Assembly (NCBI GenBank): GCA_029210545.1
Contig: JARGFV010000011.1
Span: 1 to 39,745 of the forward strand
DNA length: 39,745 nucleotides
Source of the DNA: a bacterium
GTDB lineage: Bacteria; BMS3Abin14
Direction of reading: 5' to 3'
Both the position numbers and the translations under genes were made by a program. Each line of letters starts with the position of its first letter. Positions within the stretch are counted from its first letter, which is position 1. The notes under the pieces were generated by a model. That model was not told the origin of the DNA. It saw only the letters and a list, made by a program, of their open reading frames with translations, and did no database searches. Positions 30,756 to 36,347 of this stretch are shown in pieces.

Positions 30756-32657
<1,902 letters not shown>

Positions 32658-32853: not shown

Positions 32854-33726
32854 TTGAGATCAGTAACCATAATAAAGGCGTTGTTCACCGGCGGCATCAG
32901 GAAAAGGACCAGTTCCCTGTCAATGATCGTTTTCCTGGCGATGCTGCCAACTGTGGTCTTTGCCGGCGTCAGCGACCGGGAGGTCGCGGTGGGAGATCTC
33001 CTTCCCGCACAGGTCCTGGAGCTGAAAGATGGAAACCGGTTCAACGTGCCCTCCGGGGAAGGGGTAACGGTTGTCCTGTTCTGGGCTACCTGGAGCCCGC
33101 GTTCCGCACCAGCTCTCGAGCTCTGGCATCGTTTCTCGGCCGCCTACCCGGATGAGCCCCTTCGCGTCGTCACAGTGAACTCTGAAAAGGACGGACTCGG
33201 TTCTACGGACCGGGCCGCCATCGACAGCTATGTCGAGGAGAACGGCGTCACCCTTCCCGTACACATCGACGAGGGTCTCGTGCTTTTCAATACCTACGCG
33301 GTCAAGGCCGTCCCCACCGTGTTCTTCCTTGACCGGATCGGTAAAGTTCTTTACAGGTATGCCGGTTTCCCCACCAGTGCGCCCCTGGATCTCCAGGAGG
33401 AACTGGAGATCAGGCTCGGCCTCCGGAAGCGGCAGACGGATCAGGAGGCCGCCTCCCGTGGAAAGCTGGCATACCAGCCGAAAAACAACGGGCTCCTCTA
33501 CTACAATATGGCCGTGCAGCTGAAGAAAAAGGGGTTTCCCATGAAGGCCCGCCAGAGGCTGTTGAAGGCGTTGGAGCGGGACCCCGAATACCTGGATCCG
33601 CTGCTGGCCCTCGAGGAGGATTTTTTCGCCGAGGGCAGGACCCCGGATTCGGAAAAGGCCCTGGGCGTGTTTCTCCTCGATAACGGTTTCACCGAACTTT
33701 CGAAACGGTACAGCGGGGGCAGATGA
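32854..33726 (+). CDS. Secreted thioredoxin-fold/TPR protein lacking the redox cysteines (paralogue 1)
   Basis: A TlpA/ResA-like thioredoxin domain follows a signal peptide (hydrophobic SMIVFLAMLPTVVFAG). The strand-helix motif reads VVLFWATWSPRSAPALEL, where redox-active relatives have WCxxC; both cysteines are serine (S81, S84). The cis-proline is kept (AVPTVFF, P154). The mature protein contains no cysteine. Residues from about 195 form TPR-like helices (KGFPMKARQRLLKALERDPE). TTG 32854 with AGAGGGAAC is preferred; a longer frame from 32764 reads through the terminator. Two close paralogues follow. It is probably periplasmic; its function is unknown and thiol chemistry is excluded. Confidence 0.8.
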   Translation: MRSVTIIKALFTGGIRKRTSSLSMIVFLAMLPTVVFAGVSDREVAVGDLLPAQVLELKDGNRFNVPSGEGVTVVLFWATWSPRSAPALELWHRFSAAYPDEPLRVVTVNSEKDGLGSTDRAAIDSYVEENGVTLPVHIDEGLVLFNTYAVKAVPTVFFLDRIGKVLYRYAGFPTSAPLDLQEELEIRLGLRKRQTDQEAASRGKLAYQPKNNGLLYYNMAVQLKKKGFPMKARQRLLKALERDPEYLDPLLALEEDFFAEGRTPDSEKALGVFLLDNGFTELSKRYSGGR

Positions 33727-33814
33727 CCCCCTGCCCCCCCCGGTCAGCCGATCGTTTTACGCAGCGTGACACGCTTCAGAAAGATCAGCTTTTCCTTCCC
33801 CGGAGGGGAACCAC

Positions 33815-33842
33815 CCAGAACCGGAAACCGGTTTTGGTTTTT
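33815..33842 (+). terminator. Terminator after paralogue 1
   Basis: CCAGAACCGG (33815-33824), loop AAA, CCGGTTTTGG (33828-33837) with one G-U pair, followed by TTTTT. A smaller TTCCCC/GGGGAA stem lies just before it. The following ~70 nt are AT-rich and could hold the promoter of paralogue 2. Confidence 0.75.
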
Positions 33843-33913
33843 CATTTCCTTTAAATGGTGATAAATTCAAATATTGTTTTACTGTGTGAAATTATTCTTT
33901 ACCTGAGAGGTCA

Positions 33914-34864
33914 ATGATGGTGGGTTTCATTCGAAAATCGGCACTGCTGATGACAGTGGTGATCATATCCACGCTGGCAGTCCCGGCCATCGGGCAGCCT
34001 GAAAGGGGCATCGAAGTGGGCCAGGGGATCGGGCCGCGGGAGATGAGGACCATCGAGCGGGAAAAGATCAATGTCCCCGATCCCGAGGGGCTCACCGTGG
34101 TCGTCTTCTGGGCCACCTGGAGCCCGCGGTCCGCGAAAGCGCTGGAGCTCTGGCAGCGTTTTGGCGCCCGGTACGCCGGGCACGGTGTCCGGGTGATCAC
34201 GGTCAACGCCGACAACCAGGATATGGGCCGGGAAGATGAGATCAGGATCCGGGATTACCTCGCTGAGAACAGCCTCTCCCTCCCGGTCATCATGGATGCC
34301 CGGCTCGATCTTTTTAACGAGATCGGGGTCATCGTCCTTCCGACATCCCTGTTTTTCAAGCCGGACGGGACCCTGGACTACAAGTACCCGGGTTTCCCTT
34401 CCAGCGCGGAACTGGATCTCCAGGAGGACCTGGAGAGCAGGCTTGGGATAGCGAAGGAACCCACACAGGAAGAGGCCGCCAGCCGCGGCAAGCTGGCTTA
34501 CCAGCCGAGGAACAACGCGCTTTTGTTCTTCAACATGGGTAAAATGCTCCACCGGAAAGGGTTCCCCGAAAAAGCCAGGGCCAAATATGTCGAGGCTCTG
34601 CAGAAGGATCCCGGGTACGCTGATCCGCTCCGCGCTCTTGAGGGTCTTTTCTTTGCCGAGGGAAGGACGCCCGAAGCCCAAGAGCAGCTCCGGAGCTTCC
34701 TGACGGCAAACGGTCTTGAAGGGGTCATTGAAAAGATCAGCCAGGGGGAGACCGGGCAAAAGGCAGCCGTGGCCGCCACCCCCGGTTCACCGCCGAAGGC
34801 TGAGACTGAAAAAGAGATCAGCCCCATGGAGCGTATGAGGCTGCTGATGGAGAAAGAAAACTGA
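33914..34864 (+). CDS. Secreted thioredoxin-fold/TPR protein lacking cysteines (paralogue 2)
   Basis: The 316-residue product has a signal peptide (SALLMTVVIISTLAVPAIG), then a TlpA-type domain with VVVFWATWSPRSAKALELWQ (S70 and S73 in the place of the redox cysteines). The cis-proline region is IVLPTSLFF. TPR-like helices follow around KGFPEKARAKYVEALQKDP, and a charged tail ends in EKEISPMERMRLLMEKEN. The whole chain has no cysteine. It is nearly identical to paralogue 3 over most of its length. ATG 33914 or the adjacent ATG 33917 may start it; GAGAGG lies upstream. Confidence 0.85.
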   Translation: MMVGFIRKSALLMTVVIISTLAVPAIGQPERGIEVGQGIGPREMRTIEREKINVPDPEGLTVVVFWATWSPRSAKALELWQRFGARYAGHGVRVITVNADNQDMGREDEIRIRDYLAENSLSLPVIMDARLDLFNEIGVIVLPTSLFFKPDGTLDYKYPGFPSSAELDLQEDLESRLGIAKEPTQEEAASRGKLAYQPRNNALLFFNMGKMLHRKGFPEKARAKYVEALQKDPGYADPLRALEGLFFAEGRTPEAQEQLRSFLTANGLEGVIEKISQGETGQKAAVAATPGSPPKAETEKEISPMERMRLLMEKEN

Positions 34865-35022
34865 GGCCTTGCCCCAGTTTTCTGAATATGGAATAGAGAA
34901 GTGGGGAGGTGGAATAGAACCTGCGCATTTCCTCTCCCTTCCCTATTCCTCATTCCCTCTTCCGGATTCTGTTTTTTGAAGCAGTCCCTTTTCCGATCGG
35001 TTAACAGGAGAGGCCAACCAGG

Positions 35023-35967
35023 ATGAATCTTGTGAAAAAGTCAACTCTGTTCATCGCAGTGGTGATCATATCCACGCTGGCAGTCCCGGCCATCGGGCAG
35101 CCTGAAAGAGGCATCGAAGTGGGCCAGGGGATCGGGCCGCGGGAGATGAGGACCATCGAGCGGGAAAAGATCAATGTCCCCGATCCCGAGGGGCTCACCG
35201 TGGTCGTCTTCTGGGCCACCTGGAGCCCGCGGTCCGCGAAAGCGCTGGAGCTCTGGCAGCGCTTTGGCGCCCGGTACGACGGGCATGGTGTCCAGGTGAT
35301 CACGGTCAACGCCGACAACCAGGATATGGGTCCGGAAGATGAGATCAGGATCCGGGATTACCTCGCCGGGAACAGCCTCTCCCTCCCGGTCATCATGGAT
35401 GCCCGGCTCGAGCTGTTTAACGAGATCGGGGTCGTCGTTTTTCCCACCACCATGTTCTTCAAGCCGGACGGGACCCTGGACTACAGGTATCCAGGTTTCC
35501 CTTCCAGCGCGGAACTGGATCTCCAGGAGGAACTGGAGAGCAGGCTTGGGATAGCAAAGGAACCAGCCGAGGAAGGTGATATTGATCGCGGCAAACTGGC
35601 CTACCAGCCGAAAAACAACGCTCTTCTCTTTTACAGCATGGGCAGACGGGTCCATGAGAAAGGGTTCCCCGAAAAAGCCAGGGCCAAATATGTAGAGGCA
35701 CTGCAGAAGGATCCCGAGTACGCTGATCCGCTCCGCGCTCTCGAGGGTCTTTTCTTTGCCGATGGAAGGACGCCCGAAGCCCAAGAGCAGCTCCGGAGCT
35801 TCCTGACGGCAAGCGGTCTTGAAGGGGTCATTGAAAAGATCAGCCAGGGGGAGACCGGGCAAAAGGCAGCCCCGGCGTACACCTCCGATGCGCCGGCGAA
35901 GGCTGAGACTGAAAAAGAGATCAGTCCCATGGAGCGTATGAGGCTGCTGATGGAGGGTAAAGAGTAG
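35023..35967 (+). CDS. Secreted thioredoxin-fold/TPR protein lacking cysteines (paralogue 3)
   Basis: The 314-residue product repeats paralogue 2. A signal peptide (LFIAVVIISTLAVPAIG) precedes WATWSPRSAKALELWQRFGA (S68, S71), cis-proline VVFPTTMFF, the TPR-like region and EKEISPMERMRLLMEGKE. No cysteine occurs. Compared with paralogue 2 the signal-to-residue-110 part and the 220-280 part are almost unchanged, while the part around 165-215 differs clearly. ATG 35023 has AGGAGAGG upstream. The gap before it (34865-35022) holds no gene, only GGAATAG/TATTCC words. Confidence 0.85.
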   Translation: MNLVKKSTLFIAVVIISTLAVPAIGQPERGIEVGQGIGPREMRTIEREKINVPDPEGLTVVVFWATWSPRSAKALELWQRFGARYDGHGVQVITVNADNQDMGPEDEIRIRDYLAGNSLSLPVIMDARLELFNEIGVVVFPTTMFFKPDGTLDYRYPGFPSSAELDLQEELESRLGIAKEPAEEGDIDRGKLAYQPKNNALLFYSMGRRVHEKGFPEKARAKYVEALQKDPEYADPLRALEGLFFADGRTPEAQEQLRSFLTASGLEGVIEKISQGETGQKAAPAYTSDAPAKAETEKEISPMERMRLLMEGKE

Positions 35968-36035: not shown

Positions 36036-36347
36036 ATGGTTATCGCCGAGATCAGCGTTGTGCCCCTGGGCACGGGAACTCCGAGCCTGAGCCGCTACGT
36101 GGCCGGGTGCGTCGAGGTTCTCCAGGAAACCGGTATCCGATACACCCTTACCCCAATGGGAACCATCCTGGAGGGCACCCTGGAGGAGGTTCTCGAGGTG
36201 GTGAGGCTCCTGCACCGTGTTCCTTTCAACAAGGGTGTCGAGCGGGTGTCGACACGCCTTGTCATCGACGAGCGAAGGGATAAGGATGCCTCTGCGGGCG
36301 ATAAAGTAAGATCTGTCGAGAGCCGTCTGGCCAGTAAAAAGAAATGA
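36036..36347 (+). CDS. MTH1187 family thiamine-binding protein
   Basis: The 103-residue product belongs to the small ferredoxin-like MTH1187/YkoF-type family (UPF0045), some members of which bind thiamine or related pyrimidines as soluble carriers. Signatures are MVIAEISVVPLGTGTPSLSR, YTLTPMGTILEGTLEEVLEV and RVSTRLVIDERRDK. ATG 36036 directly follows repeat sequence, with no strong ribosome binding site. No thiamine gene or riboswitch is adjacent. Family certain, role in this organism inferred. Confidence 0.88.
   Translation: MVIAEISVVPLGTGTPSLSRYVAGCVEVLQETGIRYTLTPMGTILEGTLEEVLEVVRLLHRVPFNKGVERVSTRLVIDERRDKDASAGDKVRSVESRLASKKK

Follow-up and report, generated by a model that had tools for sequence, protein, structure and literature searches.

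What could three tandem, exported thioredoxin-fold proteins do if they lack the cysteines on which the redox members of this fold depend? The question is raised by a bacterial contig of 39,745 nucleotides (the window, i.e., the whole stretch of DNA that was analysed), in which three such genes lie between dnaK and a gene for a thiamine-binding-family protein. The first-pass annotation had described them as secreted thioredoxin-fold/TPR proteins without cysteine, and both their coordinates and the motif FWATWSPRS in each were right; its view of the cluster as a binding or scaffold system fits what is described here. The linkage to dnaK, the existence of sister groups (B and C) encoded in cytochrome clusters and a conserved C-terminal tail go beyond it. 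The reading preferred here, to which we give about an even chance, is that the window genes belong to an ancient family of secreted, ResA-derived TPR proteins, in which they represent the dnaK-linked branch (A), and that their products would act as a non-redox periplasmic adaptor or holdase binding unfolded polypeptide. The features concerned are the following:

30756..32657, + strand: dnaK, upstream and on the same strand, sole strong HSP70 match in the genome and conserved neighbour
32854..33726, + strand: copy 1 (A1-type paralogue), with putative signal peptide, cysteine-less thioredoxin domain and TPRs, and without the C-terminal tail motif
33091..33105, + strand: WSPRS in place of WCxxC, copy 1
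33914..34864, + strand: copy 2 (A2-type), with putative signal peptide, cysteine-less thioredoxin domain, TPRs and C-terminal tail motif
34118..34132, + strand: WSPRS in place of WCxxC, copy 2
34826..34849, + strand: tail motif MERMRLLM, copy 2
35023..35967, + strand: copy 3 (A2-type), recent duplicate of copy 2
35023..35097, + strand: putative signal peptide of copy 3 (MNLVKKSTLFIAVVIISTLAVPAIG, then Q), by inspection and hydropathy
35140..35547, + strand: ResA-like thioredoxin-fold domain of copy 3 (residues 40-175), cis-Pro141 kept
35221..35235, + strand: WSPRS in place of WCxxC, copy 3, with Ala74 at the position of the ResA catalytic Glu
35608..35838, + strand: two TPR repeats and cap, copy 3 (residues 196-272)
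35929..35952, + strand: tail motif MERMRLLM, copy 3
36036..36347, + strand: thiamine-binding-family protein gene (PF01910), downstream, conserved neighbour

The signal peptides of all A proteins were called by inspection and hydropathy, and copy 1 probably starts at the TTG at 32854, directly 3' of GAGGG. Copies 2 and 3 are recent duplicates (86% identity in protein and 90% in DNA, dS 0.20), so that, within the window, only the comparison of copy 1 with copies 2 and 3 is an independent one. The identity of the two duplicates is patchy in 30-codon blocks (33914-34861 against 35023-35964), from 100% in codons 30-60 to 68% in codons 180-210, a pattern that suggests a recent duplication, perhaps accompanied by gene conversion.

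As to the fold, the best Pfam matches of copies 1, 2 and 3 are to AhpC-TSA/Redoxin (E 1.6e-8, 6.1e-9 and 3.1e-9, respectively), with the TPRs below threshold, and phmmer and profile searches of the PDB matched StoA, ResA and consensus TPR proteins. An AlphaFold2 model of copy 3, made from an eight-sequence alignment, predicts a ResA-like thioredoxin fold (pLDDT ~90) followed by two helical hairpins (85-90), in agreement with the earlier proposals of a thioredoxin fold and of a TPR-like C-terminal half, of which two repeats were found; with an overall pTM of 0.52, the model does not fix how the domains are placed relative to each other. Its best PDB fold matches are ResA/StoA/DsbE-like, with a TM-score on the target of ~0.8. 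None of the NCBIfam thioredoxin/redoxin cut-offs is reached by the window proteins, which score 48.2-50.7 bits for ResA (cut-off 170) and at most 63.3 bits for StoA (cut-off 210).

The departure from these known relatives is concentrated in the active site. All three copies read FWATWSPRS (W at 33091, 34118 and 35221), and in an alignment to ResA/StoA, S68 and S71 correspond to the two catalytic cysteines and A74 to the catalytic Glu. The ResA-type Glu, which follows the second Cys by three residues, is absent in A, where Ala74 is invariant, whereas the B proteins of the window's phylum retain it; the cis-Pro is kept, followed by Thr, in all three window copies. With both thiols gone, and in A also the Glu, the sequence rules out thiol-disulfide exchange at this site. 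Recoding to cysteine or selenocysteine was considered and rejected, since there is no in-frame stop and the codons are plain AGC/TCC. None of the three window chains contains a cysteine. At the window's rate (0.67% Cys) the chance of this is ~12-15% for each protein, and one cysteine-free protein by itself is thus not rare; across 15 A-type proteins, however, there are 2 Cys in 4,704 residues, against ~31 expected at that rate, and none in the thioredoxin domain. Some B and C chains have isolated cysteines elsewhere (0-4), and the complete lack of cysteine is accordingly a property of A, the property of the family as a whole being the lack of CXXC. For thiol chemistry, the window's genome has retained several ordinary WCxxC redoxins.

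Are these proteins, then, the remains of redoxins on their way out? The comparison covered 12 genomes of the window's small phylum (the window's own and 11 others, all in one family, one of them matching CP070682.1), eight of which have A-type genes, in one to three copies each (n=15). The motif is WSPRS in 12 of the 15, WSSRS in one and WNPRS in two, with R70 and S71 invariant. A1 (copy 1) and A2 (copies 2 and 3) separate as paralogues in the tree, and both types occur in five genomes. In a tree of the thioredoxin domain, with the four motif columns removed, group C left out and no root inferred, 33 A and B proteins, drawn from four phylum-level groups, fall on one side of a branch and 15 redoxins (14 with CXXC, one with CPAS) on the other (bootstrap 98, SH-aLRT 92); with group C included, the split still amounts to one change. 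No WCxxC or CXXC version was found among the A, B or C relatives, set against a small sample of redoxins. That the CXXC-less state is ancient and goes back to an apparently single loss common to A and B, with C also devoid of the motif, is well supported, as are the family and its history in general. The first-pass annotation had likewise called the replacement ancient and maintained, from the identity of SPRS in the three copies. This argument loses force, given that copies 2 and 3 are recent duplicates, and it is the relatives elsewhere that carry the case: the A-type and most B-type proteins have S-P-R-S or close variants, none has WCxxC, and dN/dS in close pairs is 0.10-0.22, which indicates purifying selection, yet with faster evolution than in dnaK or ResC. 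Redoxin copies that are decaying or were inactivated recently, and that persist by chance, might be expected to evolve faster than dnaK, to include recent duplicates such as copies 2 and 3 and to be lost now and then, as A seems to have been in one species (G007, see below). This explanation is nonetheless very improbable, being contradicted by the low dN/dS, by the intact reading frames of the 15 A genes and by a motif kept across phylum-level groups after one ancient loss; decay or recent loss is rejected on account of the supported ancient branch and the purifying selection.

The surroundings of the A genes are also conserved. In seven of the eight A genomes (G000, G001, G002, G003, G006, G008 and G011) they follow immediately after dnaK and, in most of these, precede the PF01910 thiamine-binding gene; the first-pass annotation had left the conservation of the gene neighbours to be checked. 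In G003, 122 bases separate dnaK from the first A gene and the two A genes have 4 bases in common, in an operon-like manner; the HSP70 search gave one strong match per genome. The exception is G004, on a gapped scaffold, with an actin-like gene upstream: this gene (L062 6434-7486; MreB/actin-like, 350 aa, PF06723, Alp7A-like C-terminus) occupies the place of dnaK, at a distance of two genes upstream from the A pair. In G007, a remnant that joins an A1-type signal peptide to a tail of A2 type, whose motif is interrupted by an in-frame stop (G007:C359, L144, 1030-1421), sits between dnaK and the thiamine-binding gene; unless it reflects an assembly collapse, it represents the deletion or loss of A in one species, in which case A would be dispensable.

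Does this neighbourhood point to a partnership with DnaK? DnaK is a cytoplasmic protein and the A proteins are apparently exported, and the link may therefore be merely transcriptional or positional. Control of the window dnaK by a CIRCE-type heat-shock element was rejected, since no CIRCE site was found upstream of it at up to 3 mismatches. The known protein that comes to mind is CnoX (YbbN), a thioredoxin-TPR holdase that passes clients to DnaK and GroEL and whose SXXC domain, in E. coli, is not an oxidoreductase (PMC8129009, PMC6282202). Like the window proteins, CnoX has its thioredoxin domain at the N-terminus and its TPR domain at the C-terminus; unlike them, it is cytoplasmic and has one or more cysteines for mixed disulfides, whereas the window proteins are putatively exported, cysteine-free and of ResA descent. 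CnoX (PDB 3QOU) was not among the best 60 of 146 PDB profile matches, which were led by StoA/ResA and consensus TPRs. An envelope holdase of the CnoX type with no specificity for cytochromes, with A belonging to the dnaK heat-shock regulon, would account for the shared layout and for the synteny in seven of eight genomes, but it is unlikely in view of the missing CIRCE in the window, the different compartments of DnaK and the A proteins and the cytochrome linkage of the sister groups B and C. Judged by its sequences, the family is neither CnoX (it is exported, cysteine-free and descended from ResA) nor ResA (it has no active site).

It is in these sister groups that a cytochrome context becomes visible. 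A second locus, found in eight of the 12 genomes of the phylum (with the C gene partly masked in G006), encodes group B, with WS[QEG][RKH]S and TPRs, and group C, with FVKxxQDRS and more TPRs; CXXC is absent from both. A model of a group C protein was confident for the TPRs and not for the thioredoxin half. The order in the locus is a 13-heme cytochrome, C, a 5-heme cytochrome and B, followed by either a polyferredoxin or a sensor kinase. Similar arrangements were found in a group of two genomes to which one public record gives the label Rokubacteriota (G310; WSPRS; ResB/ResC present), in another small phylum-level group (G015 and G317; WSDNS) and in a member of the Planctomycetota (G014; WSKAS), where the pair lies upstream of an NrfD-containing cluster; among 294 genomes of the latter phylum, of which the best six candidates per genome were scored, only this relative was found, which is a lower bound. 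Plasmid records yielded ordinary TlpA/StoA only. The genomic link of B and C to cytochromes is plain: adjacent multiheme genes are present at 12 of 12 B/C loci, across all four phylum-level groups (nine loci have the 5-heme gene between C and B, and at eight the 13-heme gene adjoins C), while the A loci have none (0 of 9). ResB (PF05140) and ResC (PF01578) were confirmed at three B/C loci and named by likeness at one more, and lie just upstream of B/C in G001, G002 and G008 (Pfam-confirmed in G001 and G008). G013 and G310 have six additional copies of B-like type, reading WSPRS or WSPKS; out of five that were scanned, one is beside multiheme genes and two are beside NrfD. Near the B/C pair, at L076 4983-7274 and L074 1968-4265, there are cytochrome ORFs of very large size in which CXXCH occurs 26 times, and the sensor kinase adjoining B/C in G015 (L135 9109-10629) and G317 (L143 10648-12168) has a single CXXCH, as if heme-binding.

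A further trait is shared by A and B. In the window's phylum a variable linker leads, in both, to a terminal [PA]ME[RK]M[RKQ]LLM or a close variant of it, and a degenerate DNA pattern for this tail has 16 sites in the 12 genomes, all within A or B genes or their fragments, against 0 for the reversed control. It is missing from copy 1 and from both WNPRS relatives, and is predicted in copy 3, at low confidence, as a short helix (AlphaFold2). A candidate separate gene with MERMRLLM at G006:C1:1387725 was rejected as an A gene fragment at a scaffold gap. Stand-alone C-terminal parts of group B with the tail motif were seen beside a polyferredoxin-type gene in G006 (L136 7893-8219) and G007 (L137 619-954), the former possibly a scaffold artefact.

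How could a redoxin without thiols serve in such clusters? Apocytochromes are the substrates of ResA in System II, and the ligand of the CcmI/NrfG TPRs is apocytochrome or the NrfA C-terminal helix (PMC12285233). The window proteins share with ResA/StoA/TlpA (PF00578/PF08534), their best matches in sequence and fold, the secreted ResA-type thioredoxin fold, the cis-Pro and the FWATW context, and differ in having Ser for both Cys, Ala for Glu (in A), added TPRs and the conserved tail. CcmI/NrfG offer an analogy for B and C as periplasmic TPRs in cytochrome c maturation, but they have no thioredoxin domain and belong to System I rather than the ResBC-type System II. Taken together with the CnoX holdase of the same layout, these precedents lead to the mechanism that we infer. 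The thioredoxin groove (Ser/Ser and cis-Pro) and the TPRs would bind extended polypeptide, with no mixed disulfides formed. B and C, combining ResA-like docking with TPR binding as in CcmI/NrfG, would hold apocytochromes c and present them to the ResB/ResC ligation machinery, and the conserved C-terminal helix would dock to a common partner. A would be a generalised relative with broader clients, co-expressed with dnaK. In its most specific form, which is possible but tentative, this would be a non-redox system for multiheme-cytochrome assembly, with B and C as substrate-presenting subunits of a ResBC-type maturation and A as a derived, generalised envelope chaperone docking via MERMRLLM. The strict gene order with the 13-heme and 5-heme cytochromes and the polyferredoxin, the B-like copies adjoining NrfD in G013 and G310, and the common use of TPRs to scaffold complexes could also be explained, with no chaperone role at all, if B and C were fixed accessory subunits scaffolding a multiheme/NrfD respiratory complex and A scaffolded another envelope complex. 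This is rather doubtful, since several clusters contain the ResB/ResC assembly genes, the ancestor was of ResA type, i.e., a cytochrome-maturation protein, and A has no cytochrome neighbours.

The papers searched contained no description of a cysteine-less redoxin-TPR family in multiheme clusters, and the automatic annotation of these genes as disulfide reductases would be wrong. For the adaptor or holdase reading preferred here, the biological interest lies in a conserved exported family in which the redox fold of ResA/TlpA has become a non-redox module and is joined to TPRs. Should the link to cytochromes be causal, its members would be candidates for the factors that prevent long CXXCH-rich chains from folding and leave them accessible to heme, a step of multiheme-cytochrome assembly that is poorly understood.
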